IMG/VR virus record: IMGVR_UViG_3300017963_000003
Span: 1-64,000 of that record
Source of the DNA: a virus
DNA: 64,000 bases
Reading direction: 5' to 3' (one strand)
The position numbers and the translations under genes are program-made. Below, piece by piece: positions 35,843 to 51,513 of this stretch (the stretch's first letter is position 1; each line of letters begins with the position of its first letter). The notes beneath the pieces are model-generated. The model was not told the origin of the DNA. It was given only the letters and a program-made list of their open reading frames with translations, and made no database searches.

Positions 35843-38350
35843 CTAACCCTTCGCGTTCTCTGACAAAAGCCTCGCGTAGTTGAACGGCGTCTCTCCTCCG
35901 AAATGCTGAAAGTCCTCTAGCTTAGGGGAAGTCCCTTCCTTGTAGACGCCTTTCCACCCCCTAGCCAGATTAACGTTAACCGTCGTATCGCAAGCGCTGT
36001 TGACGACCATGCTGTGCTGACAACTAACGATATTCGCCACGTAGTTCCTCTGCCTCCAGTACAACGGACGGTTCACCATGAGTCCAAAATGAGGGAGAGT
36101 CTGTAACCCGATATTACGAGCCTCCGCATTCGTCTTCCTTAGCTCCACCGCAGCAAAAAGACGGGCAGCCTCTTCAGAAGTGACCTCCGTCCAAGGACCT
36201 TTATCAGCTGCGGGGCGTACACCAAGCAGAGGAACAAGGCCGTGGGCTGCCGCCCACTGAAAGCGCCGAGAGTTGATGTCGTTGGCCTCTTCAACACGAG
36301 CGATGTTGTTCGGAGCTATTCGAGCCAACGTCTTGAGACCGTTATCGTTCAGCGAACTGCTGAAACCGAAGGTTTCGTGACGGTTAATAGTAAAGTAGTC
36401 AGAATAGTTAAAATTCTGCGCGTTGTAGGAACCACCGAACCCCTCCAACGTGAGCTGAAGATCCGAAGACAGCTCCATCATCTCCAAAATATCAGACTCC
36501 GTGTAGTCCCCGCTCGCAGCAGACCACTCCGACACCCATTCACGAAGCGGCTTCTCCCCTTCCTTTCGCAAACCCTGCAAACCTGCACGACCTTCGATCT
36601 CCGCATTCGTGATATGGGAGTCCTCTCCATCGAACATCCAAGGATCGAAATCGTAGAAAGGCATCTCGAAAACAAGGTCCCCCCTACCTGTGGAGTAAAA
36701 ACAGAACTGAATCTGCTCCGCCAAATCGTAAATGTAGGTAAGACGGTCACGAAAATCGGAATGGAGATCCCCCTGAGCCCCACTAACCATCTCGTTCATT
36801 ACGCCTGCGGAGAGACCGAGACCCAGACGCGTCGGGGCCACGTAAAACACACGACCACCCCCTACTGGATAGGTGTCTATGTCCGACCCAATGATGCTGA
36901 CAACGTCCACCACGCCGAGACCGTCAGAATTAGGGGCGGAGGTCTCGTCGGCAGCCATATCGGTTAGATCGTCAACACGAACCCGACTGTGCAACATGTC
37001 GTTGAGCTGACGCAGATTCCCCATCGTGATCGGACTTCCTGTGGCCTTCTCTAAACCGTCTAGCTCGGCGTCCCCGATGTAATATGCGTACACCCCCTTG
37101 GACTCTTCTTTGCGCTTAAACGTTACCCCGTGAGGAGCATACACCGGAGGGAAGAAGGACCCCTGGAACCTACTCTGCTTAGCGCCAATCAGGTACTCTT
37201 CCAAGGATGACCGCCGTTGAGTATCGGTCATCTTGTTGATTTCATCCAAACTCTTATAAACACCGTGCTTCTGAAGGAAGACCTGCACCTCTGAGTCACT
37301 GAAAGCCTCTACAGCCCGATTGGTCAACTCAGTCATGACCCCCTCGTAGGCTTCCTTACCGAAGAAGAGCATCTCCAGAATCTCGTACGCAGTAAAATGA
37401 GCAAATAGCTCCTGATACGCAACCCAGTTCAACGCGGCTACGTCGCCCGCACCCTCGAACGCAGGATCAAACTTGAAGATCTCCTGAATGCTCTTGTCGA
37501 GCCCAGCGTCTACGTTGAGCTGGAAATAAGAGTACCGAAGTGTTTTACTGACGTCAGTCCCTACGATAGTAACCGTGGACTCCTGATTCACCCCAACGTC
37601 TTCGGTGAAACCGTCTACAAAGCCGGAAAACATCCAGTACCATATGGTCGGGACAAAAGGATCGCGAAACGCAATTCTTATAGGATCGTTCGGATGGAAG
37701 ATGCAGTCACCTTCAGTAAAAGGGTACGTGTATATGTAATCTTCCAAAAAAATAGGAAACGCGTCCCAATCCTCTCCCAAGGCGTCTATGACCTTCTGAG
37801 ACTCCGGGGCATACTGCGTGGCCTTCTTTTCCACTACCGTCTTCTTTATGGAATCGGGGACAGAACCCTCCTCCCAGTTCTCCTGGAACCAACCCGAGGC
37901 AGCTCTCAACTCGTCATTGAATGCGCTAACCACGTCCACAAAAGACTGCCCCACCTGCTCATTGGCGAATGCCCCAAAAAAAGCCTCTAGTACATCTACG
38001 TCCTCCCCCGCTTCGTCGCGAAAGTACTGCTGCAACCCTGCGAAGAGGGTAACGTTGTCTTTAAGGTAGTTGACAAGCTGTTCCCGGCTGTCGCTAAGCG
38101 CAACCATATCGGTATGATCGATGATGTATTTGTCCAACGGGTTATGCAGAGTGATTGAACACGTAGAAGGAGCGCGATCCATGCTGCCCCCGGATTGGTT
38201 GACACGCACGTCTATAACGTCCCCCGACACCTCCTGCCCGTAAATGAAAACACGGAACGCCGGAAAAGCGGCGCGGTAGATGCCTTCTTGAGACGAGAGG
38301 ACCGACTGCTCCGTCCAGAGTTTTTCACCCAGTTTACCCAGTTCAACCAT
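35843..38350 (-). CDS. Baseplate hub protein (gp27/gpD-like)
   Basis: The 835-residue product precedes the spike, as tail hub genes usually do. Its start region (F-R-V-F-I-Y-G-Q-E-V-S-G-D-V-I-D-V-R-V, P-S-T-C-S-I-T-L-H-N-P) and the later F-S-G-F-V-D-G-F-T-E-D-V, V-T-I-V-G-T-D-V-S-K-T-L match the beta-barrel pattern of hub proteins that hold the spike. It is much longer than gp27 (391 residues), with a large helical insertion between about 90 and 190. The ATG at 38350 overlaps the upstream stop (TGATG). There is no hydrolase motif. Confidence 0.7.
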   Translation of the reverse strand: MVELGKLGEKLWTEQSVLSSQEGIYRAAFPAFRVFIYGQEVSGDVIDVRVNQSGGSMDRAPSTCSITLHNPLDKYIIDHTDMVALSDSREQLVNYLKDNVTLFAGLQQYFRDEAGEDVDVLEAFFGAFANEQVGQSFVDVVSAFNDELRAASGWFQENWEEGSVPDSIKKTVVEKKATQYAPESQKVIDALGEDWDAFPIFLEDYIYTYPFTEGDCIFHPNDPIRIAFRDPFVPTIWYWMFSGFVDGFTEDVGVNQESTVTIVGTDVSKTLRYSYFQLNVDAGLDKSIQEIFKFDPAFEGAGDVAALNWVAYQELFAHFTAYEILEMLFFGKEAYEGVMTELTNRAVEAFSDSEVQVFLQKHGVYKSLDEINKMTDTQRRSSLEEYLIGAKQSRFQGSFFPPVYAPHGVTFKRKEESKGVYAYYIGDAELDGLEKATGSPITMGNLRQLNDMLHSRVRVDDLTDMAADETSAPNSDGLGVVDVVSIIGSDIDTYPVGGGRVFYVAPTRLGLGLSAGVMNEMVSGAQGDLHSDFRDRLTYIYDLAEQIQFCFYSTGRGDLVFEMPFYDFDPWMFDGEDSHITNAEIEGRAGLQGLRKEGEKPLREWVSEWSAASGDYTESDILEMMELSSDLQLTLEGFGGSYNAQNFNYSDYFTINRHETFGFSSSLNDNGLKTLARIAPNNIARVEEANDINSRRFQWAAAHGLVPLLGVRPAADKGPWTEVTSEEAARLFAAVELRKTNAEARNIGLQTLPHFGLMVNRPLYWRQRNYVANIVSCQHSMVVNSACDTTVNVNLARGWKGVYKEGTSPKLEDFQHFGGETPFNYARLLSENAKG

Positions 38351-39102
38351 CACACCAACTCGTTAAAAAACTCAGTCCCCAGCGTGAGGGAAATGTACCT
38401 AAAAATGTCATCCATTGAAGGAATCGTTTCTGTCGCCACGAAAGAAAAAGAGTACGTCTTGCTGAAAGGGTTAGCCGCGTCGTCGGTAAACTCCAGCACA
38501 CGGTCAAAATGACCGATGAACTGAATCAACGCATTGGCCAACATAGGGCTACTGTACATGAAATAAAAACGATTAGGGTACCCCCCGAACGGATCAATAA
38601 CAGGCTCCCGCGTGAGGCTGTACAGGTTCCAGAAGTTCACGAGCTTCGAAGCACCTTGCAACGCCTCGATATCAAGCCCCTCCTGGTTCGTGACCGACTT
38701 CACCCAGTCCCGGAACTTCTTGATATTCTCAGAGAGATACTTGCTGTTGCGCTGCATCCCAGTACGGATGTTGATGTTCCCCGTCGCCCCAGCAAAACTG
38801 ATGTTGATGACGTCGTTGTTGCGACCCTTCGCGTTCGTCCAGTGATAGAACACAGCACCGGACTGCGTATCTCGCCTCGTAATCCTCTTGTTCTGCGAAA
38901 AGGTCACAGTCTCCGGATTCATCTTCATGCGCACAGGATCAATGCCGTTGTTCATACGTTGATCCGAAGTGAACATAAAAGGAACTCGATACGCAACATC
39001 CTCGTAGGGGTTGAGTATCCGATCAAGAATACGTTCTGTAGAAGGTGTAGGAGTCGTCTCCCCACCAAACGTATTACGCAAATTTTCCAAAAATGTCGCC
39101 AT
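38350..39102 (-). CDS. Baseplate/tail-tube-end protein, function not assigned
   Basis: The 250-residue product has a GAGG Shine-Dalgarno and sits between the last tape-measure-like gene and the hub. Typical features are M-N-P-E-T-V-T-F-S-Q-N-K-R-I-T-R, an aromatic F-Y-H-W, then I-S-F-A-G-A-T-G-N-I-N-I and a C-terminal strand Y-S-F-S-F-V-A-T-E. Position and the M-x-P-x-x-V/I start fit the small proteins (gp53/XkdP-like) that link tube and hub, often with a LysM tail, but no LysM motif is seen here. Confidence 0.6.
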   Translation of the reverse strand: MATFLENLRNTFGGETTPTPSTERILDRILNPYEDVAYRVPFMFTSDQRMNNGIDPVRMKMNPETVTFSQNKRITRRDTQSGAVFYHWTNAKGRNNDVINISFAGATGNINIRTGMQRNSKYLSENIKKFRDWVKSVTNQEGLDIEALQGASKLVNFWNLYSLTREPVIDPFGGYPNRFYFMYSSPMLANALIQFIGHFDRVLEFTDDAANPFSKTYSFSFVATETIPSMDDIFRYISLTLGTEFFNELV

Positions 39103-39110
39103 TACCTACC

Positions 39111-41906
39111 TCAGCCCGGAGCGAGCCCCAGCGCAGCAAGCTGGTTAGCCTGCTCCCCTTGGCGCTTCTTGGTTCGCTCTCGATGTTGCTTTCCGGTTGC
39201 CCATTCACGCGCCTCGCGACCAGCAGCGGTATCAGCTCCTGGCCTCCAGAAGAGGGCACGCTCGTAGTTCCGTCCTCCAGAAGGAATGGAACCTAAGAGA
39301 CCCCCACCCCTCATGAACGGCGGAAGTCCCTCGCCCTCGTTGGCGTGAATGAACCCCGTCGCACCCTTCGTCCAGTCCTGTGTCCCGGAATCACCTCTCA
39401 AGATGCTGCGCGCGAAATCAATCGTAGCCTGCGAGGGGCGACGGCGCGTAGCGTACTGGCGGTTGTACCGCTTATTGTTGTTCTGCTTCCCCCACCCCTT
39501 ACCGGAAGTGGCCTTGTTCTTGAGAGCACCCCCACCCCTGCCCTTGGCACGATTGATCAGAGTGTGCGCGATACCTACCAGCTCCTTCTTGCGCGCAGGA
39601 CTGTACCCTCCAGCTTCGCTCTGAAGGACACGAGCCAGCGCCTCCACGTCGTCCCCGGTGTACTTGCCCTCACTGGCAAGAGCCATACTGCTGAACTCTC
39701 CCTCCAGCTCCGCTTCCTCGGAAGCGAAGGAAAGCCCACAACGAGGGCAGTTGCCGCCGATCTCGAATGAAATGTTGCCCTGGGTGTCTACACCGCCCAC
39801 TTCGAGAGTGACTCCGCCTCCAGCCCACGGGCCGTCCCATTCCGACTGCGCAGCCTGAGGGTCCTTCTTTACCGAAGCAGGTGCCTTCGCCATCTGCTTG
39901 GGAGCCATCGAAGATTGACCCGACTGGAGCGATGCCACGGGGATCTGCACCACTTGAGACGGAGCGAACGCGTTGCCCGCACCCCGACCCTTGGTACCCG
40001 GCATCGATCTGAGTCGAGAAGACGCAGGATCGAAGTTCCAGGCCTCCTGGAGGGTCTTCATCGAGGTCCCCAGGACGTCAGAACCCATGCGCTTCATCGC
40101 CTTTGTCATCTGGGACAGACCCCGGTTCATCTTGCGCTTGTGCTCTTCCGTGTTCCCGAACAAGGCGTTGATGTCAGCCGCCAACCGATTATTGTCCTGC
40201 TGATCGCCGCTGATGCCGTTCACAATGAACTCAGGGAGGGCCTTGAAGAACGCAATCAGCCACGACACGGCCTGGATGACCATGCCCATGATACCCTGCC
40301 CTACCTTGGCCAGTCCCTTCATCCACGAGTTCATCGTGCGCTCGAATTTGCTGCGCTTGGTGGCCTCCACGCCAAACGACTTGGACAGGATCTCGGAATT
40401 CTGCTTGGCCGCCGTGGCTGCCTCTACGGTCTTCCCCTCCTTCATCTTGGAACCGATCTCGGCTATCAGACGGGCACCCTCAAACCCGAGACCCATCTGC
40501 TTCTCCATGTAGAACCGCGCGGTCTCCTCGTCCCCTCCAGTGGCCTCCATGGCGATGTCGTAGACGGCCTCGACGATTCGCGTGACTTCTCCACTGTTGT
40601 TGCCCTCGGCAACACGGCGGAATGCGTCCATCATCTTCTGCCGTGCTTCGAGTCCTCGACCGTAGCCGAGCCGTTCCCCGAGAATGATCTTCCAGGAATC
40701 CGACATCTTGGCGATCCCAGACGCCATCTGCTGTATCCCCATCGCGGCCTGCTTTCCCGCGAACTGCTTGGGAACACCCATCTTGGAGAACTGCTCCGTA
40801 ACGTGCGAGTAGATGTCCACGACGTTATCGATGTCGTACCCCATCTTGGCCAGCTCCTTGCCAGCATCCTCCACGTTCTTCACGTACTGCATCGCACCGA
40901 TACCGGAATCCCGACCCACCATGTACATCCGGGTCAAGGACTCCCTGGCCTCGTCAGTGGTCTTGCCGTAGTCGGCCATCAGGCCCACCATCCGCTTAGC
41001 GCTCTCCCCACCTCCCAGCTCGAACATCTTGTCCAGAGCCAGAGTCACCGTGACGGCACTGCTGTGGACGCCCTTGAGCCGCGTATCGACAGTCCGCGTC
41101 ATCTGATCGACGCTGACACCGCCGTCGACAAAAGCCTGGGCAACCGACTGAATCTGTTCCCGGTTGATCCCCATGTACTGCTGCAACGACTCCTGGATCG
41201 AGGACAGGTGACGAGTTCCAGAACGTACAGCCCCCTTCACCCCGTCATCGTAGGCGGCGATGAGGATGTTCTTCATCTCCCCGGCCTGGGCACGAACCCT
41301 GTCGCGGTCCATGTAGCCGTGGATCATGATGCCGATACCACCCGCTGCAAGGGCCTTCCACTTCGGCACCTTGAGCTTCTGCATCATGCCGCCGATCTTA
41401 CCCTTCAGCGTCCTCCACTCTGACCGAACCACCTGCTTGGACTTGTTGGCCGCCCAAGCACGCGCACCGCTCTTCTTACGGCCCTTGCTGTCACGCCCCT
41501 TAGCGCCTCCTCCGCCGTCCTCGGCGTCCACCTGACCCGCAACAGCGTCTGCCTTGTCTACAAGCCCCCTTGCGCCCGCTGAGAGGCTCTCAAAGTCCTT
41601 CTCGGCGGCCTTGACCGTCTTCTCCAGCTCGTCGAAGGACTTACCCATGCTCCCCGCGAGCTTCTCGAACTTCTGAGAAACCCCCTGGACGTACTCCTGC
41701 CCCATACCGGTCAGCTTCGACCCCTCCTTGAGGGTGGGATCGTTCTCCAGATCCGAGAACACGGTCTTGAAGCTGTCGCGTAGAGACGCACCGAGCGCAT
41801 CGATCATCTCAGTGTTGCGCTGAGATACCTCACTGATGGCGTCACCGAGTTCGGTGAACTTGAACCGAGCAGCATCGAGATGCTGTATGTCAACGATATC
41901 GGTCAT
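39111..41906 (-). CDS. Tape-measure-like protein 3 with C-terminal SleB-like hydrolase domain
   Basis: The 931-residue product is the last of three paralogous tape-measure-like proteins. It shares with the other two a G-Y-x-x-R-D-R-x-R segment after a Gly/Ala-rich helix (about 185-205), a long helical body and a membrane-like helix near 555-580. Unique to it is a C-terminal extension: residues about 752-800 read D-V-E-A-L-A-R-V-L-Q-S-E-A-G-G then V-G-I-A-H-T-L-I-N-R, the pattern of SleB/CwlJ-type cell-wall hydrolases with the Glu in place. A Cys-x2-Cys (C-P-R-C) precedes it. The domain could locally open peptidoglycan during DNA entry. The start overlaps the previous stop. Confidence 0.72.
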   Translation of the reverse strand: MTDIVDIQHLDAARFKFTELGDAISEVSQRNTEMIDALGASLRDSFKTVFSDLENDPTLKEGSKLTGMGQEYVQGVSQKFEKLAGSMGKSFDELEKTVKAAEKDFESLSAGARGLVDKADAVAGQVDAEDGGGGAKGRDSKGRKKSGARAWAANKSKQVVRSEWRTLKGKIGGMMQKLKVPKWKALAAGGIGIMIHGYMDRDRVRAQAGEMKNILIAAYDDGVKGAVRSGTRHLSSIQESLQQYMGINREQIQSVAQAFVDGGVSVDQMTRTVDTRLKGVHSSAVTVTLALDKMFELGGGESAKRMVGLMADYGKTTDEARESLTRMYMVGRDSGIGAMQYVKNVEDAGKELAKMGYDIDNVVDIYSHVTEQFSKMGVPKQFAGKQAAMGIQQMASGIAKMSDSWKIILGERLGYGRGLEARQKMMDAFRRVAEGNNSGEVTRIVEAVYDIAMEATGGDEETARFYMEKQMGLGFEGARLIAEIGSKMKEGKTVEAATAAKQNSEILSKSFGVEATKRSKFERTMNSWMKGLAKVGQGIMGMVIQAVSWLIAFFKALPEFIVNGISGDQQDNNRLAADINALFGNTEEHKRKMNRGLSQMTKAMKRMGSDVLGTSMKTLQEAWNFDPASSRLRSMPGTKGRGAGNAFAPSQVVQIPVASLQSGQSSMAPKQMAKAPASVKKDPQAAQSEWDGPWAGGGVTLEVGGVDTQGNISFEIGGNCPRCGLSFASEEAELEGEFSSMALASEGKYTGDDVEALARVLQSEAGGYSPARKKELVGIAHTLINRAKGRGGGALKNKATSGKGWGKQNNNKRYNRQYATRRRPSQATIDFARSILRGDSGTQDWTKGATGFIHANEGEGLPPFMRGGGLLGSIPSGGRNYERALFWRPGADTAAGREAREWATGKQHRERTKKRQGEQANQLAALGLAPG

Positions 41907-44212
41907 CGTGCGCCCATCCGGGTAGAGCTATTCTGAGAAACCCGTTTCCTCGATTCTATCAGAGAAGATGTCGTTCCTTTTTTACCCACAGCGGGTTTTG
42001 AAATACCGTCAGAAGACTCACTCACGTTGGAGTTCATCGTGCGGTCCTTGGCACGAGCCTCCCTGCGAACCTTCTGCGGAGAGCGGCGTCTAGACTTTCT
42101 ACCAGCCTGCGGTTTGTCTGCGGAGGAGACTGCCTTCTGGACCTTCCCTCGACGTTCCGTCTGATCAGGAACCGCCGCGTCCAGCTCCACGTCGGCGTCC
42201 GTATCGACATCGAGATCGTAGTCTCCGCTAGACAGAATATCCGGGTCTTCGTCGATCAGGTCCTCCCGAACCCTTTCCTCGTCAACGTCCATACCCCCAC
42301 CGTACCCAGGAGCCATCGGAGCCTCTACCGGGGCTTGATCACGCAAAACATCCAAGAGAGGGCCAAACGTCTCCCGAAACTCACCACCCAAGGCCTGTCC
42401 GGCGATCTCGAAACCACCGATGAGCTTCTCCCAGCTACCGGCCATCGTGTTGAAGACCTTGTTCTGCTGAGCGTAGATGCGGTGATACACCTCTTGACGC
42501 TCAGAAACAGGAGTCAAGAGAATCTGAGCCTCCCCTTTGAGGCCGACCATCAACACCGAGACCAGGTCCACCAGGATCGCCAGGATCGCCTCACCGATAC
42601 GCGCCATCCCGCGAATCAGCTCTCTCCGAGTACGGTGCAAAGAGGAGACACGCTCGCTCTCCGTCTGGAAAGCCTTGCGAAGCTCTTTTCGCTCTTTCTC
42701 GGACAGGTCCTCCAGCTTGCCACCCTCAGCTAGCTTCTCCCCCGCGTCCCAAACCAACTGAGCAGTCCGGTTCTTGACGTTCAGAAGCTTCGAAGTGGCG
42801 TAGATCCCCCGACTCCGCGACGTAGAGGTCTTGGACTTCAGAGTACGTACGGTGGAACGGATGAGATTCTCCAAAAACTGGTCATCATCCCCCTTAGAGA
42901 TGCGGCGCAGACCGTCGTCGAACCTCAGCATCAACGAAACCGCATCCGCCTCCTGGTCCTGGTACATGTCCCTAGCAAGAACGATCTTGAGCTGATCGTC
43001 CAGCTTCGTAAACGACGTCATCAGATCGGCTACAACACCTTCGGCCTGCTTCCCCGCGTACCTCTCGGACAACCCATGCGCGGAGTAGAAATCGATCACC
43101 TTCCCCGCGAAAACAGCAGCCGTCTCCGCCTGTACGCCCATTCGCGAAAGAGGATCAGCAGCAGACATAACGATGCGCGTGAAGTTACGAACACCGATAG
43201 CGCTCCGAGCACCGGCAGCGGTCAACCGAGTGTAGAACCCCGCAGCGTCATCCAACTTCATCCCGTAGTCGCGAACGAGACTCGTGATGTCCCCCATGGC
43301 CTCCGCCGTGGCGAAGTTGAAGTGCTTCCCTATACCCAGCGCCAGGGTGACGACGTTCTTCCCCACCTTCCCCAACCCATCATCAAAGGTCTTCAACATG
43401 TCAGAAGCGCGGAAGCCATTGTCGACCATCAACTTCACCGCGCCCTGGGTTTCTTTCCGACCCACACCCCATTGCCACTGGGCACGCTCACCCCAGTTGG
43501 CAAACCACCGAGTGGCTCTCCGGGAACTCGCTGAGAACAGCGAGTCCACACTACCCTCGAAGAGGTTGGCCATCTCGGACATCTCAGCACGCCGACGGTC
43601 ACGCTCTGTGTACCCGAGAACCATCGCCCCGATGAGACCACCGACAAAACCCGTAGCCACTCCCCCTGGAATCTTGCGCAGAACGCTCTGTAGCTGTTTC
43701 TTGACCGAAGCTGCCTCTTTGCCAACAAACTTCGCAAGACGTGATTGCCGCTCTTCGGCCTCATCAGTGGCGCTGTCTGCCTCCTGGGCCACCTTCTCGG
43801 TCGACTTCAGGGCCTCCTCGGCATCGTTCTTAGCCCCTGCCGTATCCGGGACCGGCGGAAGAGGTTGCGTCTTCTCGGGGGCTTCCCCTCGGGGGTCCTC
43901 GTTACCGAGAAAGTTTTCGATCTTCAACGACCGGAGCTTGTCGAGAGCGCTGCTCATGGTGCGCTCCTGTCGGTCGTACGCGCTGAGGCTGCTCTCAATC
44001 TTGGACACCGAGGCATCCGTCATGGGAAGAATCAACGGAGGAGGATCACCCACTGAACCGGAACCCAACGTGATGTCGTCCGATGCACGCATAACGCGCG
44101 CTGAAAGCATCTGAATCGTGTTCCCCAGCTCAGTGTATGCTCGCGTGGTACCCTCTAGCTGAGAACTCAGCCAAGGGAGATCAACTACGAGCCGTGGAAT
44201 ACCGTCGGTCAT
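41903..44212 (-). CDS. Tape-measure-like protein 2
   Basis: The 769-residue product is clearly paralogous to its upstream neighbour. Both carry P-G-G-V followed by a Gly-rich hydrophobic helix and G-Y-x-E-R-D-R, then R-A-T-R-W/F-F, K-E-T-Q, G-L/K-V-G-K-N-V, a conserved R-S-A-I/M-G-I/V segment, Y-A-G-K/N-Q-A, and the R-V-S-S-L-H-R/K-T-x-R-x-L-I/Y-R element before a hydrophobic helix. The C-terminus is basic (R-K-S-R-R-R-S). It starts and ends with ATGA overlaps, so the three genes are translationally linked. Together they probably form the tape measure or inner tail rod. Confidence 0.7.
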   Translation of the reverse strand: MTDGIPRLVVDLPWLSSQLEGTTRAYTELGNTIQMLSARVMRASDDITLGSGSVGDPPPLILPMTDASVSKIESSLSAYDRQERTMSSALDKLRSLKIENFLGNEDPRGEAPEKTQPLPPVPDTAGAKNDAEEALKSTEKVAQEADSATDEAEERQSRLAKFVGKEAASVKKQLQSVLRKIPGGVATGFVGGLIGAMVLGYTERDRRRAEMSEMANLFEGSVDSLFSASSRRATRWFANWGERAQWQWGVGRKETQGAVKLMVDNGFRASDMLKTFDDGLGKVGKNVVTLALGIGKHFNFATAEAMGDITSLVRDYGMKLDDAAGFYTRLTAAGARSAIGVRNFTRIVMSAADPLSRMGVQAETAAVFAGKVIDFYSAHGLSERYAGKQAEGVVADLMTSFTKLDDQLKIVLARDMYQDQEADAVSLMLRFDDGLRRISKGDDDQFLENLIRSTVRTLKSKTSTSRSRGIYATSKLLNVKNRTAQLVWDAGEKLAEGGKLEDLSEKERKELRKAFQTESERVSSLHRTRRELIRGMARIGEAILAILVDLVSVLMVGLKGEAQILLTPVSERQEVYHRIYAQQNKVFNTMAGSWEKLIGGFEIAGQALGGEFRETFGPLLDVLRDQAPVEAPMAPGYGGGMDVDEERVREDLIDEDPDILSSGDYDLDVDTDADVELDAAVPDQTERRGKVQKAVSSADKPQAGRKSRRRSPQKVRREARAKDRTMNSNVSESSDGISKPAVGKKGTTSSLIESRKRVSQNSSTRMGAR

Positions 44213-46578
44213 TCGCTGTTCGGCCTCTTGAGGATATTCTTCTGGGCTTCCTGGTTGGCAGTCCCGGCGTCACCGGCACTGAGCACCGTCTTGCCTTTGC
44301 TGGCACCCACCTGCTGGTCCACCTGGGAGCGCTTCTTCTGTCTCTTGTAAGCACGGCGTATACGAGCCAACTCTTTCTTCTGCAAATGCCCCTCTACGGC
44401 GCTCGCCCTCTCTTCCAGTGCCTGAGTGCGCCTACTCCACTTCTGGAAGTCTTCGCTCGGTGCCTCGCCTTCTTCAGGAGCGTGCATGAGCTTCATCATC
44501 TCCGACGCCCACGCAGCGTTCTTCAAGAAGTCGACCGTCATCTGGTCCTTGACCTGACGACGAAAGTCCTCGTCCCCCGCCAGGTCACTAAAAACACTCC
44601 CTAGCTCCTTGGCAGCCGCATCCGCATCCTCCAGAGAGGTAATAGGCCTCATGCCGCCGCCCGTAGGAACCTTGTAGTTCAGTGCGTCCAAAAGGGGCTT
44701 GAAGTCCCGTCCGAACTCCTTACCCAAGATGCCGGGAACCATACCCGCGCCCTTCATGATCTGGTCCACACCGGTACCCATGTGCGCGTTCAGCGTGTCG
44801 AGTTGATCACTGATGCGACTCAGCTCGGTCTGCACCTGACCGGGGCTACCTGAAACCGCAGCGGAAACGATATCCGGGAGCGCACGGATACCTGTCACGA
44901 TAACCCCTAGCAGCCCCACGAGAACCTTGATCAAGCCGCGACCGATCTCACCTATCGCACGGTAGAGACGACGCTGCGTCTTGTGCAACGATGATACCCG
45001 CTGACTCTCCGTCATGAAGGCACGACGCAGGTGCTTCGTCTCATCCTTCGACAGCTCGGACAAATCGTTGGTCCGCGCGAGCTTCTCCCCCAGATCGTAC
45101 AACGTCGCCGCCGTACGGTTATCCATACCCTGGTACTCCATGACACGGATGGATTGAGCACGACTACGACCACCGCGACTGGACCACTGAGTGAAAAGCA
45201 CCAACGCCTTCTGCATGAAGTCGTCGCCCCCACCCTCAGCAACACGAAGAAAACCGTCCTCCCACTTCTGGAGGGCGTCCAGCGCGTTCAGCTCAGGGAA
45301 CATCTGCTGCGCCAGAACAGCCTTCATGCTCGGGTTGAGGTTCGCGAGACCTGCGGACATGCCACCGATGACCTGCGAGGCCTGATTGCCCGCGTATCGG
45401 GGATCGAGCCCCATGTCCTCGTAGTGCTTCCGGATGGTCTCCATGACGGACGCAACGTTGGACACGTCAACGCCGTACTGCTGCATCGCGGAGGAGCCTG
45501 AGATGACAGAATCGACGAACCTACCGATACCCATCGCGCTACGCTGCCCCGCGAAAGCCAGCTTGACGTACTTGTCCGTAGCGGTATCGAGAGAATCACC
45601 AAGCTCAGTAGTGATCTTGATGATGTTGCTCATGGAGGTACCGGTCTTCTGGTTGAAGTGCTTGTCCACGGCGATGGACGCAACAGTCACGTTCTTGCCA
45701 ACAAGACCCAAGTCTTTGTTGTACGTGGTCATGAAGTCCTTCGACCGGTACCCAGCGTCAACCATGCTCTTCAGTACAGCCTGCGTTTCCTCCTTGGCCA
45801 CCCCGTAGAACCACTGCGCGGTCTCTTGGAACCCAGAGAAGAACCGAGTAGCTCGCTTCGATGCTTTCGAAGAAAGCGCCTCTCCGGTAGCTTCGAAGAC
45901 ATTCAGAATCTCTCCCGATTGCCACCGAAGACGGTCCCTCTCCTGATACCCCATGACCATCGCAGCCAGGAGACCCCCAGCGATGCCCCCGGCAGTCATA
46001 ACGCCGCCAGGAACATGACTGAGCACGCTCTTGACCTGACCCTTGGCGGCGTCCAGCTCAGACTTCAAGTACCGCTTAGCGCGGTTGATAACCATCACCG
46101 AGGCCTTATCGGCCTCCTGAATCTTCTTGATCGACTCCAAAGCCGCATGCTTGACCTCGTCGGAGGACATGCTGGCCAGGCGAACGCTCTCCTTGACGAT
46201 TTCCGCCTTGGCCTCCGCTGCGCTGAGCTGAGGAGGTGTGGGGTCCTTGGTAGCGGCCCCCATCTTGACCCCCGACAGGCGAGTCATGTCGTTAGCGATC
46301 TTCTCGCTATGACGTGACATCTCTTCGAGGAGGTTGGACGTAGAGCCTACCCCGGACTCCATGATCTGGACCGACCGCTCCATCTGCGGAGTGATCGAAG
46401 AGAGACTGACATTGACCGACGCCGCCTGCTCCTGGAGAGAGACCAGCTCTTCGTCCGTACGGGAAATGAGACCCTGAAGAGACCTGCCGAAATCCGTGTA
46501 GGTCCTCCGAACGTCGTCGATCTGAGCCTGGAACTTATCCAGGTCGAATCGAAGCAGGTACTCTTCAGTGGTCGCCAT
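44209..46578 (-). CDS. Tape-measure-like protein 1
   Basis: The 789-residue product directly follows the tail assembly chaperone pair, the standard position of the tape measure. It is helical, with a coiled-coil-like N-terminal 160 residues, a Gly/Ala hydrophobic helix and G-Y-Q-E-R-D-R-L-R (about 205-235), the shared central body, and a second hydrophobic segment near 550-590 (V-L-V-G-L-L-G-V-I-V-T-G). The C-terminal end is Lys/Gln rich. The ATG at 46578 forms a TGATG overlap with the chaperone frame. It fits with proteins 2 and 3 as a tandem gene family. Confidence 0.75.
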   Translation of the reverse strand: MATTEEYLLRFDLDKFQAQIDDVRRTYTDFGRSLQGLISRTDEELVSLQEQAASVNVSLSSITPQMERSVQIMESGVGSTSNLLEEMSRHSEKIANDMTRLSGVKMGAATKDPTPPQLSAAEAKAEIVKESVRLASMSSDEVKHAALESIKKIQEADKASVMVINRAKRYLKSELDAAKGQVKSVLSHVPGGVMTAGGIAGGLLAAMVMGYQERDRLRWQSGEILNVFEATGEALSSKASKRATRFFSGFQETAQWFYGVAKEETQAVLKSMVDAGYRSKDFMTTYNKDLGLVGKNVTVASIAVDKHFNQKTGTSMSNIIKITTELGDSLDTATDKYVKLAFAGQRSAMGIGRFVDSVISGSSAMQQYGVDVSNVASVMETIRKHYEDMGLDPRYAGNQASQVIGGMSAGLANLNPSMKAVLAQQMFPELNALDALQKWEDGFLRVAEGGGDDFMQKALVLFTQWSSRGGRSRAQSIRVMEYQGMDNRTAATLYDLGEKLARTNDLSELSKDETKHLRRAFMTESQRVSSLHKTQRRLYRAIGEIGRGLIKVLVGLLGVIVTGIRALPDIVSAAVSGSPGQVQTELSRISDQLDTLNAHMGTGVDQIMKGAGMVPGILGKEFGRDFKPLLDALNYKVPTGGGMRPITSLEDADAAAKELGSVFSDLAGDEDFRRQVKDQMTVDFLKNAAWASEMMKLMHAPEEGEAPSEDFQKWSRRTQALEERASAVEGHLQKKELARIRRAYKRQKKRSQVDQQVGASKGKTVLSAGDAGTANQEAQKNILKRPNSE

Positions 46579-47411
46579 CAATCACTCTCCACGATCACAG
46601 TCGGCCTGTCGAGGCTCGGTTCTGCCTCCACGGACTTGTCCGATGTGACTTGGACCGACACCAAATCAACGTGCTCCACAATGTGCTGCTGAGAATGCTC
46701 GCGCTTCATGTCATGCCGGGCTTGACCGATAGTGCGCGCAGCGACATCCGACAGGGAGTTTTCCTCGATGTCGTCTTTGTTGAGAACCAGAGACTCCAGA
46801 AGGGCCTGGTTGTCCCGACCACCCCAGGACATCATCCGTTGCAGCTCCTCAGGGGTGCTGTCGCACTCGACGTCGCCGTCGTCCTCCATGAAGGCTTCCA
46901 GCTCGTCGGGGGTCATCTCCACGACACCGGTATCGACGGGGCGACCGTCGTCACCAACCTGGCCCGATGCAGCGAGCTGACCCGCCACCTCCTGCTGGGT
47001 ATGGAGCTGTTCGGTACGGTCTTTGATCATCGAGAGGACGTCATCACGCCCAGTCATCACAGAAAGTGGCATGATCTCGTCAGGAGTAGGCATCCGAAGC
47101 AACCCCGTCTCCTCGTCCTCCACCGGACACAGGTTGAGGCCCAACATGCTCACCACCTGGTCTTTCACTATGTCCGCCATCAGCTCGATGTCCTTGTACC
47201 GATCCAAGTCCTCCTTGTTCATCGCCTCAAGCTCAAACACCCACTGGGTATCGTTCATCCCCTTGATACGGGGGTCCCCGATGGGGATCTGTCGCTTCGT
47301 CAAGACCTTGGCCTTGATCCGAAGGCGAGAAGCTATTCGTCGCCAGACGGGGAAGACTCGGTCCCAGTGGGCTTCTCGCCCTCTTCCGAACCCTCCCCGG
47401 AGGATTTTTTT
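46578..47411 (-). CDS. Tail assembly chaperone, downstream frame expressed by -1 frameshift (gpT-like)
   Basis: The frame is open from the A7 slippery run (47405-47411) to 46578 without a stop. After a shift it continues for about 275 residues through an Arg-rich bridge to a helical acidic domain (with M-T-P-D-E-L-E-A-F-M near the middle). The only independent start is a TTG at 47303 with just AAGG before it, so frameshift expression is favoured. The fusion with the upstream gene would be about 430 residues, like the G/GT chaperones that coat the tape measure during tail assembly. It overlaps the first tape-measure-like gene. Confidence 0.75.
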   Translation of the reverse strand, partial: KKILRGGFGRGREAHWDRVFPVWRRIASRLRIKAKVLTKRQIPIGDPRIKGMNDTQWVFELEAMNKEDLDRYKDIELMADIVKDQVVSMLGLNLCPVEDEETGLLRMPTPDEIMPLSVMTGRDDVLSMIKDRTEQLHTQQEVAGQLAASGQVGDDGRPVDTGVVEMTPDELEAFMEDDGDVECDSTPEELQRMMSWGGRDNQALLESLVLNKDDIEENSLSDVAARTIGQARHDMKREHSQQHIVEHVDLVSVQVTSDKSVEAEPSLDRPTVIVESD

Positions 47412-47869
47412 GCTGCGTCCTGGGCGTCCTCCCTACGCTGTTCGAGAGACTCCCAGAAACCCCACATCTCCTCCAGACGCTCCGGAGGACGCTCCGCCAG
47501 GTACTGCATCAGGTACTCGGCCGCGAAGTACTTCTGATTGTAACGCCCCCGACCATCGACGAGCTGCACGATCTGACGTCCCTCCTCGGTGCTCTCCCAC
47601 TCCTCGCGGAAGAACTCGAAGACAGGAATTCCGTTGATGGCGCGAATGCCGATGGACAGTGTGGGCAACCTCCAGGAAGAAACCGTCGAGATGCGCGACC
47701 CGGTGTTGATGAACGAGTTACGCCAGTTCGACTCTTCCTCCGTCAGCAGACGTATCGTCCACTCACGGCCCATCCACAGGAAAGTATCCTCGATGGTCTC
47801 GCCATCGAGTTCCCGAGCAAGGTCCAGCAACATCTTTTTGGGACTTTGATTGTCGTTTGAAGGCAACAC
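47333..47869 (-). CDS. Tail assembly chaperone, upstream frame (gpG-like)
   Basis: The GTG at 47869 has GAGGAG with eight-base spacing and gives 178 residues. The product has D-T-F-L-W-M-G-R-E-W-T-I-R-L-L, S-I-G-I-R-A-I-N-G-I-P-V-F-E-F-F and a charged helical end, the general build of phage tail assembly chaperones. After codon 155 the message contains A-AAA-AAA-T, the classic slippery heptamer in the right phase. Most ribosomes would stop at 47333; a fraction would shift -1 into the downstream frame. Two hairpins lie just upstream of the Shine-Dalgarno. Confidence 0.8.
   Translation of the reverse strand: MLPSNDNQSPKKMLLDLARELDGETIEDTFLWMGREWTIRLLTEEESNWRNSFINTGSRISTVSSWRLPTLSIGIRAINGIPVFEFFREEWESTEEGRQIVQLVDGRGRYNQKYFAAEYLMQYLAERPPERLEEMWGFWESLEQRREDAQDAAKKSSGEGSEEGEKPTGTESSPSGDE
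47405..47411 (-). promoter_or_regulatory. Programmed -1 ribosomal frameshift site (A AAA AAA)
   Basis: The minus strand reads GCA GCA AAA AAA TCC in the zero frame of the upstream chaperone. The heptamer A-AAA-AAA is correctly phased for a -1 slip, and the -1 frame is open for the next 275 codons. The gene order (chaperone frames, then tape measure) is where this recoding is widely conserved in tailed phages. Confidence 0.85.
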
Positions 47870-47885
47870 GGCTTTCGCTCCTCCT

Positions 47886-47924
47886 CCCGCTACGCGGGGT
47901 CTAATTGTGAGTCGCTTTCGCGAC
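47886..47924 (-). promoter_or_regulatory. Two small hairpins between tail-tube and chaperone genes
   Basis: On the minus strand GTCGC-GAAA-GCGAC (47911-47924, a GNRA tetraloop) is followed by CCCGC-GTA-GCGGG (47886-47898), which runs into the chaperone Shine-Dalgarno. There is no U-tract. They may stabilise the 3' end of the tube mRNA, act as a leaky terminator, or lower translation of the chaperones relative to the tube proteins. Confidence 0.5.
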
Positions 47925-47928
47925 AAAC

Positions 47929-48534
47929 CTACAACAGAGGTCTCACCTTGGTGTAGACCATCGTTGCGTTGACTGAGACGATACGGTCTCCTTGCGCTTG
48001 CATGTTCCGACCCAGACTGGTGAACCAGCAACCCGAGTACCAGAGCTTCTCCACGCTCACTTCCATCCCCTGAGGGACGGCCCCGGTGTCGATACCATCG
48101 AGGTCGTTCTCGGTCCCGATACCCAGTGCACCCCCGACCTTAGTGTTGCCGAGAGTGTTGAGCATGCTGTCGCTGACCGACTGAAGCCACGGGGTGAACG
48201 GGGAGTCGTCCTTCTTCCCGTACCTGACCCATTTCTCCTCAACGTCGAACGGGTTGTGCTGGTCGGTGAGCATGTAGAGTGCCTTGTCGGTCCCCCAGAT
48301 CTCCTCCATCTTCTTCGTGAAGAGATCGTACCTCGCCACCTGAACGGTCTGGGAAGACGAGATGCCGGCAACGTGCTCGATGGGCGCCCCGAGACCGACA
48401 GCGTTGATCTCGTACTTCGGCTTGACGTCCCTCGCCTGGGAAGGAGCCCACGTCTGGATATGTCCGATGGTCTTCCCGCCCGCTCTGATAGAGATCGCAT
48501 GGCTAGTGCGTACTTGCGTGACGGGTACTGGCAT
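47929..48534 (-). CDS. Tail-tube-like protein, long paralogue
   Basis: The 201-residue product is a paralogue of the gene just upstream. Both begin M-P-V-P, then R-T-S-H-A-I-S-I, share I-G-x-I-Q-T-W-A-P, T-V-Q-V-A-R-Y-D-L-F, K-M-E-E-I/V-W-G-T, and end G-C-W-F, G-R-N-M-Q-A-Q-G-D-R-I-V, V-N-A-T. This copy has about 55 extra residues after E-K-W-V-R-Y (Gly/Asp/Ser-rich, with K-V-G-G-A-L-G-I-G). Size, position after the sheath and before the chaperones point to the tail tube family. The insertion may mark a specialised ring such as a tube end. Confidence 0.68.
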   Translation of the reverse strand: MPVPVTQVRTSHAISIRAGGKTIGHIQTWAPSQARDVKPKYEINAVGLGAPIEHVAGISSSQTVQVARYDLFTKKMEEIWGTDKALYMLTDQHNPFDVEEKWVRYGKKDDSPFTPWLQSVSDSMLNTLGNTKVGGALGIGTENDLDGIDTGAVPQGMEVSVEKLWYSGCWFTSLGRNMQAQGDRIVSVNATMVYTKVRPLL

Positions 48535-48541
48535 GTGAGGC

Positions 48542-48988
48542 CTAGAGCGGTCGGATCTTGACGTAGTTGAGGGTCGCGTTGACCATCACGATACGGTCGC
48601 CCTGAGCTTGCATGTTGCGACCGATCTGCGAGAACCAGCAACCCTCGTAGTGGTAGAACTCGGTAGCGCCGTCCGGGTTTCTCCACTTCTCGCGCAGCTC
48701 CAAGGGATTGAGCTGGTCGGACAGCATCCAGAGAGCCTTCGCCGTACCCCAGACCTCCTCCATCTTGGAAGCAAAGAGGTCGTAACGCGCCACCTGGACG
48801 GTCAGGCCGGTGATGTTCCCCGGAACGTTCTCCGTCACCTCACCACTCGTCTCCGACCGCAACTCGTACGTTGGCGTTATGGTACGAGACTGGTTGGGCG
48901 CCCACGTCTGGATCTGCCCAATGGGCACCCCTCCTGCCAGGATCGATATTGCATGGCTGGTGCGGATGTTTGTCTGCGGAACTGGCAT
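48542..48988 (-). CDS. Tail tube protein, short paralogue
   Basis: The 148-residue product follows the tail sheath gene, the standard place of the tube protein in myoviruses, and has a strong GGGAGGAGG Shine-Dalgarno. Strand-forming segments (H-A-I-S-I, T-V-Q-V-A-R-Y-D-L-F, R-I-V-M-V-N-A-T-L-N-Y-V) alternate with one helix. It is the compact version of the pair and therefore the better candidate for the repeating tube subunit; the longer copy next to it has an insertion. The family was assigned by size, fold-like composition and synteny. Confidence 0.75.
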   Translation of the reverse strand: MPVPQTNIRTSHAISILAGGVPIGQIQTWAPNQSRTITPTYELRSETSGEVTENVPGNITGLTVQVARYDLFASKMEEVWGTAKALWMLSDQLNPLELREKWRNPDGATEFYHYEGCWFSQIGRNMQAQGDRIVMVNATLNYVKIRPL

Positions 48989-49011: not shown

Positions 49012-51513
49012 CTACGCTGCCACGCTGAAGAAGGGGTTGTCGACGGAGAACTCACCGAAGAACCGCTTGGCCGGGTACTTCAGGTTGTACCAGTACTTGA
49101 AGTAGAACGTCCTCGGATCGGTCGAGGACTGGTACACCTGGATGTCCGTGGTGGCGTCGATGTCCCTCGGGAGACCGGAAGAATCGCGGTAAGCCGCGAT
49201 GGAACCGTTGTTGATGTTCGCCAGGATACCGAGCAGAATCCACTTCTTGCAGTCTGTGATGAAGTCCGCGAGGTCGTCCGGAACGATACCCACAACGTTG
49301 CTCGTGAGCAACGTATCGACAGTCTTGGTGACAGCGTCCTTCTGCGCACTCGCTGAAGGCTCCTCGAACTGCACCACCTTGCCCCCGCCGGCCTCGGTGG
49401 TGAGAGGATCGAGCATGACGAAGCGACCTGCGTCGTAGGTGACTACGAGGACACCTTTGTCCGCCAGAGCGTGCCGCTCCCCGCGCAGGTAGGTCCCGAA
49501 ACCGTCAGCGGTGAAGCCGGTGATCTGGAGACCGATGAGCGCCGACGAGGGACTCGGGAGACCCGCATAGATGGACGCCACCGCCGCCGCGATGTAGGTC
49601 CCGTCTAGATCGACGTTGACCTCCTGTCCCGTATCCAGGGTGAGGGTACGGGTAGCGTTCGGCGGAGCGATAAGGTGCATGCGCCCGCGCCCCGGAGAGT
49701 TGTTGCCCGGCTGGAGCGTCTGGGTGGACGCGAAGATCAAGGTCCCCGGCGTATCGGGATCACCGACGTCGGTGTCCCTGGCCATGCCGAACCAGCCGCG
49801 ACGATAGTGCTTCTCCAGCATCGACGACTCGCTGGACACATGGTTCATCTGGTAAACCATCGTCTCCAGCGCCGTATCGAGGGTCAACACTTCGGTGATG
49901 TTGACGTACTCCTTGGCCACGTCGATAGCAGAGTTGATCTGGGTCTGCGTGGGAGAACCCGGCACCGTGGCATCGTTGACCTGGACCAAGTAGAGCGAAG
50001 ACGCTCCGTTCTCGAAAGCAATCTCACCTGCGATACACAGATGGTTGCGGATGTAGTTGCTCAGGTTGAGCTGCGTCGTATACGCGTAGAGCTGGTCGAC
50101 ATCGAAGACCCGGTGAGCGGTGGAGTAGTCCGTGGAAGGCCGGGTGTAGTCGTAAGTGCTGTAGAAGGAGGTCCCGTAAGCGGGACGCTGTCCGGTCCCG
50201 TTCACGATGTAGGGCTGCGTGATGTTGCCGAAGATGGTCGTGAAGGCGTCGGTGGCGTTCGACAGGAACATGATCGAGGACGCGGCGCCCTTCTCGGCCG
50301 GCGTGTTCTCGAACGCATCCGGAGCTGTCAGCACCACCGTGTTGCCCAACACCTGCGCCACATGGCTGAACTCGGGACCGTAGGCGGTAGCGATGCTGTT
50401 CAGTGCCGTGTTGATGTCATCCGCCACCGTGGTCACGTTGGTCGGAGCGCCTGGGGTTAGCGTAACCGCCACCTGGGTGAGACCGTTGATCTGGATGAGC
50501 AACTGGTCGTTCACGCCGGCCACAATCGTCGGAGGAGACGCAACGAAGTCAACCGAAGTCACCGTAGCCTGCGACCACGAAGTGGTGTCCCAATCAAGAT
50601 CGTTGGAAGCACCATTCTCGTAATCGTAGTTCTTGATGTAGTCGATACCGCCCGGATACGAACCCACGCTGACAATGTCGGACAGCGGCGTCGAAGTGCC
50701 GGCTCCGGACAGAGCGTCTGTGAGCGTCTCGATTGAGATGTACTCGATGGTGTAGGTGGCGGCGGAGTTGTAAGCGGCGTCAGCAACCGTGATGGACGTC
50801 GCGGCCTGCACCCCACCCGAAGCCGCCGGAACCCACGCAGCGTTTGAAATGATGGACGCGGCGTCTTCTTCCATCGACAGGAAGACCTTCACGTCACTGG
50901 CAGACTCCGTCGAGGGAGACGTGAGAGTGATGTACTTCTGCGTCACACCAGCGACCGCCGCTGCCACCGCAGAGTATGCAGCACCGTAAGTGCTGTAGTA
51001 GGTCCCCAAGGGATTACCCAACTCGTAGTTGACGTATGCCGCGACCTCGTCCGCAGTCGCCGTAGCAGGGGCCGCGATGATGCCAACCGGGGCAACACCG
51101 AAATCGATGGTCACCGCGCGCTTCCCATCGAGAGACACGGTGAAGTTGTGAGTACCGCCAGCGGTGGATACGTCCACCGTGGCAGCGCCCCACTCCGAGC
51201 CGGTCAAGACCGCCGGGTTGAACGACCAATCTCCGAGACCCAGCTCGTTGTCGTTCATATACAGGACGGCCTCGTTGCGGGATCTGTTCGAAGCGTTCGA
51301 CAGAGTAGCCGTATGAGGGCTAGAAGACGCCACGGTCAAGGTCTCGTCGTACACCTTTCCGCGAACGATCTCCTCGTCGACGCTACGACGAGTCCGGGGC
51401 GCAATCCCGACCAGAGCGAGCGTTCTCTCGGACGTCACCGAAACGGAACCCGGAGTGATTACCTCCGAGATATATACGCCAGGGTCAACGTATCGTGAAA
51501 TCGAGATTGCCAT
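49012..51513 (-). CDS. Tail sheath protein
   Basis: The 833-residue product begins with the sheath signature Y-V-D-P-G-V-Y-I-S-E followed by V-S-V-T-S-E-R-T-L-A-L-V-G. The C-terminal 150 residues contain D-G/A-R-F-V-M-L, D-L-A-D-F-I-T-D, and a final domain with F-K-Y-W-Y-N-L-K-Y-P-A-K-R, as in contractile sheath subunits. The middle 400 residues are Thr/Ala/Ser-rich beta domains that would decorate the outside of the sheath; the protein is longer than T4 gp18 (659). It has its own TTTAGAATCCC promoter and a GGGAGGA Shine-Dalgarno, consistent with high expression. Confidence 0.9.
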   Translation of the reverse strand: MAISISRYVDPGVYISEVITPGSVSVTSERTLALVGIAPRTRRSVDEEIVRGKVYDETLTVASSSPHTATLSNASNRSRNEAVLYMNDNELGLGDWSFNPAVLTGSEWGAATVDVSTAGGTHNFTVSLDGKRAVTIDFGVAPVGIIAAPATATADEVAAYVNYELGNPLGTYYSTYGAAYSAVAAAVAGVTQKYITLTSPSTESASDVKVFLSMEEDAASIISNAAWVPAASGGVQAATSITVADAAYNSAATYTIEYISIETLTDALSGAGTSTPLSDIVSVGSYPGGIDYIKNYDYENGASNDLDWDTTSWSQATVTSVDFVASPPTIVAGVNDQLLIQINGLTQVAVTLTPGAPTNVTTVADDINTALNSIATAYGPEFSHVAQVLGNTVVLTAPDAFENTPAEKGAASSIMFLSNATDAFTTIFGNITQPYIVNGTGQRPAYGTSFYSTYDYTRPSTDYSTAHRVFDVDQLYAYTTQLNLSNYIRNHLCIAGEIAFENGASSLYLVQVNDATVPGSPTQTQINSAIDVAKEYVNITEVLTLDTALETMVYQMNHVSSESSMLEKHYRRGWFGMARDTDVGDPDTPGTLIFASTQTLQPGNNSPGRGRMHLIAPPNATRTLTLDTGQEVNVDLDGTYIAAAVASIYAGLPSPSSALIGLQITGFTADGFGTYLRGERHALADKGVLVVTYDAGRFVMLDPLTTEAGGGKVVQFEEPSASAQKDAVTKTVDTLLTSNVVGIVPDDLADFITDCKKWILLGILANINNGSIAAYRDSSGLPRDIDATTDIQVYQSSTDPRTFYFKYWYNLKYPAKRFFGEFSVDNPFFSVAA

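Follow-up and report, generated by a model that had tools for sequence, protein, structure and literature searches.

The window analysed here covers positions 1-64,000 of a virus record that is 192,260 bases long. It carries three tandem genes, a, b and c, for diverged paralogs of a tape measure protein (TMP), and the last of them ends in a domain that resembles a cell-wall hydrolase. We propose that the three proteins run alongside each other inside a single tail tube and form a heteromeric bundle, with an a:b:c heterotrimer as the likeliest form, that the tail has the length given by an ordinary single chain, and that c alone brings the enzyme. To us, the chances that this is the true arrangement seem about even. 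Tape measure proteins, enzyme-bearing tapes and TMP-related effectors of injection systems are already known. No phage with two or three paralogous tapes is described in the literature searched, outside which most subscription papers lie. In the accessible text of three papers where "two" stands near the tape measure (PMC8407745, PMC3556154, PMC5028729), the word refers to two chaperones.

Organization of the tail module

The following genes of the window were considered; the names sheath, tube, chaperone and hub are positional.

49012-51513, minus strand: sheath-like protein, 833 aa, named from gene order
48542-48988, minus strand: tail-tube-like protein A, 148 aa; phrog_985, E 2.7e-7 (virion structural protein in PHROG), tube role by position
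47929-48534, minus strand: tail-tube-like protein B, 201 aa, paralog of tube A; phrog_985, E 4.8e-6 (virion structural protein in PHROG), tube role by position
47333-48031, minus strand: first tail chaperone position, ORF of 232 aa, function by position only
46578-47303, minus strand: second tail chaperone position, 241 aa, function by position only
44209-46578, minus strand: gene a, TMP paralog, 789 aa, transcribed first of the three, without recognisable enzyme domain
41903-44212, minus strand: gene b, TMP paralog, 769 aa, sister of a in the tree, without recognisable enzyme domain; weak TMP_3, PhageMin_Tail and phrog_1272 matches
39111-41906, minus strand: gene c, TMP paralog, 931 aa, with an enzyme-like C-terminus
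38350-39102, minus strand: tube-initiator-like protein, 250 aa, directly 3' of c; weak PF23980 and phrog_1011 matches, conserved family A15
35843-38353, minus strand: hub-position protein, 836 aa, named by position; no hydrolase domain in Pfam
31944-33374, minus strand: baseplate wedge subunit, 476 aa; phrog_6, E 1.7e-24

The three TMP-like genes are transcribed in the order 789, 769 and 931 aa, all from the minus strand. These sizes, and the place of the genes after those for the chaperones (known by position), agree with an earlier sequence-only reading of the window; the 789 residues of a are counted from an ATG, and the mechanical ORF begins one codon upstream at a TTG. Genes a and b overlap by ATGA at 44209-44212 and b and c at 41903-41906, and the gene upstream of a overlaps it by TGATG. 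The ATGA overlaps are the pattern expected for coupled translation, in a module where dense packing is common throughout anyway. The first chaperone-position ORF probably has an internal true start, since its homology begins at about residue 38-45.

The sheath-like protein had no match in a Pfam, PHROG or PDB sequence search, and its naming leans partly on the character of its sequence; profiles of the sheath, tube A and initiator likewise found nothing among PDB sequences. The phrog_6 match of the wedge subunit supports a contractile (myovirus-type) tail. A DNA polymerase and helicases are also present in the window, together with a major head protein at 59815-61077 (phrog_2522, E 1.7e-58), which speaks against a contractile injection system, a tail-like particle that lacks capsid genes.

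Paralogy of the three proteins

BLASTP confirmed that a, b and c are colinear, diverged paralogs in tandem, as had been noticed from the sequence. The pairs scored 322 bits for a-b (E 1e-102, 33% identity over 650 columns), 157 bits for a-c (E 1e-43, 23% identity) and 156 bits for b-c (E 2e-43, 25% identity). Against these stands a best control score of 38.5 bits among 814 controls, which were run with a as the only query. They comprised versions of b and c, of which 600 had been shuffled locally and 200 reversed, with or without shuffling, and in addition 14 other tail-region proteins of the window, unaltered. Three places in the whole 192,260-base record matched a at E 0.001 or better, namely a, b and c themselves. 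The motifs that the sequence-only reading had listed were also looked up: GYxxRDR stands in all three proteins (GYQERDR, GYTERDR and GYMDRDR), as does Y/F-A-G-K/N-Q-A, and RVSSLH is limited to a and b. The central element R-S-A/G-I/M-G, which had been given for all three, holds exactly in a (RSAMG) and b (RSAIG); the c sequence has DSGIG there.

Identification as tape measure proteins

We regard a, b and c as TMPs because of their position, their predicted fold and weak Pfam matches. They come after the tube and chaperone-position genes and before the hub, in synteny with the rest of the family and with Virus Rctr197k (KX853510.1), which has the same order of sheath, two tubes, two chaperone-position genes, TMP, initiator and hub. 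Rctr197k differs in having one TMP of 669 aa in its whole 197,311-base record, without a Pfam hydrolase in it. Among 28 copies that are not hydrolase carriers, Pfam TMP_3 was found in 5 (best E 9e-4) and PhageMin_Tail in 2 (best 4.9e-4). The Pfam TMP matches of b fall below the curated cutoffs, and b alone of the window's three touches phrog_1272 (tail length tape measure protein), at E 0.009.

The AlphaFold2 model of a, made from a 39-sequence alignment, has a mean pLDDT of 73.0. It shows a helix through the Gly-rich stretch, long C-terminal helices and two further parts:

46021-46542, minus strand: two long N-terminal helices of a (residues 13-186), modelled at low to middling confidence
45004-45867, minus strand: short-helix core of a (residues 238-525), modelled mostly at pLDDT 80-95

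Foldseek with this model gave 85 matches in BFVD at E 0.001 or better (best 4.6e-8), with low TM-scores of 0.14-0.32 by query length; among the best 50 of the 85, 29 bear the name tape measure or minor tail protein, 20 are unnamed and 1 is uncharacterized. Against PDB structures the model had no Foldseek match at E 0.001, and when all TMPs were searched against PDB sequences, most hits were designed proteins of helical or coiled-coil type and one, at E 0.26, was a tape measure chain. The diffocin TMP is described, in the accessible text of PMC10996793, with the same kind of short-helix domain as the core of a, which the two thus have in common. The tapes of diffocin (CD1366), 80alpha, JBD30 and T5 are alike to those of the window in being long helical chains with hydrophobic helices, encoded between the tube or chaperone genes and the baseplate genes.

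Copy number among relatives

A tblastn search of 50,697 named phage records found only one relative, Rctr197k, with its single TMP copy. The reach to it is weak from a (E 0.04) and absent from c, and a relative's sheath reached it at 2e-166. The other relatives were obtained from IMG/VR scans and from species genomes. Altogether 25 distinct phages have a complete TMP region, with one copy in 10 of them, two in 6, three in 9 and more than three in none; nine whole records were searched, and the counts elsewhere cover the tail module, copies far from it being possible in those phages. Among the whole records, that of the window and six others gave three copies each, Rctr197k gave one, and the L029 record of 50,679 bases gave none. 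The phages are distributed as follows.

Three copies, a-b-c adjacent: the window, L008, L011, L012, L024, L025
Three copies, second clade (clade II), with the initiator gene between first and second copy: L026, L027, L028
Two copies: L036, L035, L041, L095, L113, L092
One copy: L014 (Rctr197k), L038, L040, L042, L043, L048, L100, L102, L110, L071

The a-b-c set is therefore kept in order in six distinct phages. The tally leaves out, as the same phage, L009 and L010 (1 and 0 mismatches to L008), contigs of the window's own phage and repeat loci of one contig and, as the same phage over the TMP genes, L034 and L037 (0 and 2 mismatches to L036) and L093 (0 to L092). Also left out are the loci that break off before or within the TMPs (L017, L018, L030, L039, L046, L090, L099, L111, L115) or in the initiator (L072), the cut L029 and L047 (one weak TMP match, 45.6 bits), L044 with its near relative L045 (TMP identity unproven), and L049-L052 (remote tube or initiator match only). 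The proteins L018_a and L072_t are outside the tally and were kept in the trees and enzyme counts.

Duplication history

The tree of 51 proteins places a, b, c, x, y, D1, D2, D3, p, q and the single copies each in one group, where x and y are the first and second copy of L041, L095, L113 and L092, p and q are the two copies of L035 and L036, and D1-D3 the copies of clade II; a, b, c, x, y, D1, D2 and D3 are all starred in it. Support was 96/91 for a+b, 100/100 for a+b+x (with x as sister), 100/100 for c+y, 100/99 for D1+D2+D3 and 99/93 for the singles; the tree was midpoint-rooted for drawing, and the program flagged long branches in the single-copy group and an odd composition for L100_t, L041_x and L041_y. 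The AU test, with groups named after inspection of the tree, rejected both a grouping of c+y with D3, the enzyme-bearing copies of the two clades (p 0.003), and one of a+b+x with D1+D2, the non-enzyme copies (p 0.006). Smaller trees agreed with this at lower support: with 29 proteins the union of D1 with D2+D3 had 64/54, and with 40 proteins a+b stood against L041_x at 86/68 and L041_y fell inside c. In a sheath tree built before L095, L113 and L092 were known, the single-copy phages likewise form a group, as do clade II and the joint set of clade I and L041.

From this topology, the lineage of the window first had an ancestor of a and b together with c, a and b split later, and clade II tripled separately. 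The trees imply that duplication was stepwise and that the a/b split came after the two-copy phages had branched off. The a-b-c set is an old orthologous set. It is suggested that tandem duplication turned a homomeric, one-protein tape into a two-protein and then a three-protein tape, and all three of these states are represented among the living relatives.

Chain length and tail length

Length was measured over the stretch common to all copies, which begins at the N-terminus and runs up to the second hydrophobic helix. This shared part is 555 +/- 17 aa in multi-copy phages (39 copies, 514-594) and 524 +/- 30 aa in single-copy relatives (11 copies, 481-587), and in the window it is 566 aa in a, 560 in b and 556 in c. 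These values show that chain length is independent of copy number. An expectation of 500-575 aa for every copy was given up, as 6 of 11 new copies fell outside it (range 481-594).

The sequence-only reading had asked whether the tail is unusually long, adding up the three proteins to about 2,490 residues. If they worked end to end, the summed 2,489 aa of the three tandem genes would measure a very long tail of about 373-423 nm at 0.15-0.17 nm per residue, and tapes do change length within one gene by tandem duplication of short units, according to the accessible text of PMC3271669. With each duplication, such an arrangement would make the tail two or three times as long, whereas each protein here is about as long as a single-copy TMP (642-740 aa), plus the extra end in the enzyme-bearing copy. 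Since chain length stays flat across copy numbers, a tripled tail is unlikely, and we consider the joint measurement of one long tail very improbable; the suggestion of an unusually long tail found no support.

One hydrolase-like copy in each multi-copy phage

Each of the 15 multi-copy phages has a hydrolase-like C-terminus on just one of its copies. Of these carriers, 4 have a Pfam match above cutoff and 4 one below; the other 7, which are six c and L041_y, have no Pfam match of their own and are assigned by homology with L095_y and L113_y and by the SleB-like model of the window's c. At E 0.05 in Pfam, a hydrolase family was found in 0/25 other copies and 0/11 single-copy TMPs, a contrast of 15 with 11 that, given shared ancestry, amounts to about three independent cases. 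The prediction of one enzyme copy had been written down before three of the two-copy phages and five of the single-copy phages, one of these being cut, came to light, and all three two-copy phages fit it. The hub proteins had no Pfam hydrolase at E 0.05 in 10/10 tested (8 from single-copy and 2 from three-copy phages). Two features of c are involved:

39318-39677, minus strand: SleB-like domain (lytic transglycosylase fold) of c, about residues 744-863, from the predicted structure
39735-39749, minus strand: CPRCG element before the enzyme domain of c, from the sequence

The C-terminus of c, as modelled, resembles SleB and is a putative cell-wall hydrolase. VIA-align placed it on the SleB catalytic domain of 4fet with Z 9.2 (3.1 A over 101 residues) and of 4f55 with Z 8.3, the next row being 2.9; for comparison, models that lack a clear match often reach a best Z of 7 to 8. 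The fragment model has a mean pLDDT of 63.3, with 83-95 for fragment residues 51-110 and 131-160 and 50-67 by block for 111-130. Plain Foldseek with it gave no match at E 0.001, Pfam gave none for the C-terminal domain of the window's c, and the c profile had three matches among PDB sequences (E 0.09-0.38), all to unrelated proteins. Pfam Hydrolase_2 was found below its cutoff of 27 in L095_y (23.0 bits) and L113_y (23.4 bits). A profile of the c end, built from seven sequences, also recovered the three newly added y copies but none of the remaining TMPs in the set of 51, and a CxxC at the CPRCG place is present in 10/10 c/y orthologs and in 0/12 of the other copies compared. L092_y has an M15 peptidase above the Pfam cutoff in place of the SleB-like domain; the c-end profile covers only the linker there, so the enzyme of this copy has been exchanged. 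Clade II has a glucosaminidase above cutoff in L026_3 and L028_3 and SLT below cutoff in L027_3, and M23 is above cutoff in L035_p and below it in the fragment of L036_p that was searched. Phmmer with the C-termini of L095_y, L092_y and L027_3 returned nothing useful.

The exchanged end of L092_y could also be understood if one copy, of a or a/b type, were the tape and the others, above all c, were TMP-derived cargo, ejected as wall-cutting or membrane-acting effectors. TMP-related effectors with variable C-termini, including Sle1 and Tme, are reported for contractile injection systems in the accessible text of PMC13277306, and the likeness lies in a TMP-like protein with a variable C-terminal domain that is cargo of a contractile tube. 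Those effectors belong to injection systems, whereas the record of the window encodes a major head protein and the TMP copies in it are closely related to one another. The short-helix core and the second hydrophobic helix are retained at near-equal spacing in every copy, and a and b have no recognisable payload, which is unlike cargo. We consider such cargo unlikely.

The TMPs may also be interchangeable, each virion holding a homomer or a random mix, with a variety that would suit ejection into different hosts or past different envelope proteins. Fast divergence of TMPs between near-equal sheaths would fit this, as in L011 and L012, whose sheaths are 95% identical and whose TMPs are 40-55% identical. 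Free interchange predicts loss and shuffling, and what is seen instead is that fixed-order orthologous sets persist through deep divergence, with the hydrolase-like end confined to one copy in 15/15 phages. This makes interchange quite improbable in our opinion.

A proposed heteromeric tape with the enzyme on one strand

Most solved tapes are trimers. In the accessible text of the papers concerned, the diffocin tape is a full-length homotrimer with its N-termini at the collar and its C-termini on the spike (PMC10996793), that of 80alpha is present in 3 copies (PMC7048315) and that of JBD30 is a trimer (PMC11445458); T4 gp29 is listed as 3 copies, its oligomer not being determined there (PMC3004832). 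The tapes of diffocin, 80alpha, JBD30 and T5 come from one gene and form a trimer in the tube lumen, whereas the window has three diverged genes; here the stoichiometry, the presence of all three proteins in the virion, the activity of the enzyme and any advantage are inferred. Taken with the copy-number and enzyme data, the solved tapes point to a tape of unlike strands, probably a heterotrimer, in which one strand bears the enzyme. The hetero-complex of all three proteins that the sequence-only reading had raised is thus a serious possibility, its stoichiometry being our proposal.

In the proposed arrangement, three strands would form a coiled bundle in the tube and set a tail length of an ordinary single chain. 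The strands would be specialised: a and b would retain only the ruler, core and membrane-helix parts, and c alone would keep the SleB-like cell-wall hydrolase at its C-terminal end, which would lie at the baseplate as in known tails. We hold it possible, with a confidence somewhat short of even, that the heterotrimer is an obligate one with one each of a, b and c, that it was reached stepwise and independently in the two clades, that copy number is capped at three because there are three strands, and that each tail has a single enzyme. A possible advantage would be one enzyme per tail, compared with three in a narrow lumen for a homotrimer, and the enzyme might be exchanged without touching the other strands. 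A single TMP carries a peptidoglycan hydrolase motif in TM4, according to the accessible text of PMC1796659. TMPs of the TM4 type are alike in bearing a cell-wall enzyme and differ in that the enzyme is on a single TMP there and on one of 2-3 paralogs here. Since hydrolases occur on single TMPs in other phages, an enzyme-bearing tape does not require duplication, and the steric advantage is a guess.

It is still debated how many copies the tape has and with what symmetry (trimer or hexamer), and how globular enzymes fit the narrow tube is a second standing question on which this family bears. With one, two or three distinct tape genes, it offers a natural labelled system: the strands are distinguishable by sequence, so that stoichiometry, register and enzyme number are directly measurable. 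If the proposed arrangement is true, it would be a homomer-to-heteromer transition inside a virus tail. Charge complementarity between the copies was also considered as a sign of hetero-pairing and was discarded, as the segment charges had no pattern.

Several observations speak against a heterotrimer. A hexameric tape is suggested for Pam3, as told in the accessible text of PMC10996793. Chain lengths are unequal within one phage: between copies, the N-terminal parts are 12-44 aa apart in the nine phages with three copies (13 aa in the window), 44-63 aa in L041, L092, L113 and L095, the four two-copy phages of the window's lineage, 10 aa in L036 and 28 aa in L035. The missed band of 500-575 aa, the 7 carriers that lack a Pfam match and the lower support in the smaller trees count on the same side. 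Lastly, a pair of paralogs (E 2e-33) occupies the TMP place in L044 and L045; both proteins match the TMP profile weakly and have no Pfam hydrolase, and the end of the first L044 protein may, judged by eye, resemble a transglycosylase, which the libraries searched did not bear out.

Discussion

The position of the initiator gene distinguished the two clades in which the tape measure protein (TMP) is present in three copies. In clade II (loci L026, L027 and L028), this gene is placed between TMP copies 1 and 2, whereas in clade I, the lineage of the window, it is located after the last copy. In a more distant relative, L044, the place of the TMP is held by two paralogous proteins of 760 and 657 aa (L044:11561-15817), and this pair is probably the product of a separate duplication. 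The tail-tube-like gene has been duplicated too, with two paralogs in the window (47929-48534 and 48542-48988). Three such genes in tandem were found in four relatives with a single TMP (L038, L040, L042 and L043), and likewise in the cut contig L039.

In the related loci L011, L012 and L018, the sheath showed 95-98% identity, in contrast to only 44-55% for TMP a, the first of the window's three paralogs. Judged from these sequence comparisons, the sheath may have been recently exchanged, or the tape may be evolving very fast. In addition, sheath-like ORFs of 1,046 aa (L025:6836-9976) and 913 aa (L113:10001-12742) were observed. Since several close relatives have 825-835 aa, their greater length suggests that domains have been inserted.

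The tape carries a predicted bacterial-wall hydrolase, which argues for bacterial hosts of this phage family, despite the assignment of L030 (QMZE01000009.1) to the genome bin Archaeoglobales archaeon B35_G2; the binning or the host is therefore in question. L030 contains the sheath and tubes of the family, and L030 and an IMG/VR contig (entered as L030 and L017/L097) are both 17,766 long.

Downstream of the baseplate genes, the window contains two very large ORFs:
22334-27076, minus strand, ORF of 1,580 aa
27338-30940, minus strand, ORF of 1,200 aa
A counterpart of the 1,200-aa ORF is present in Virus Rctr197k.
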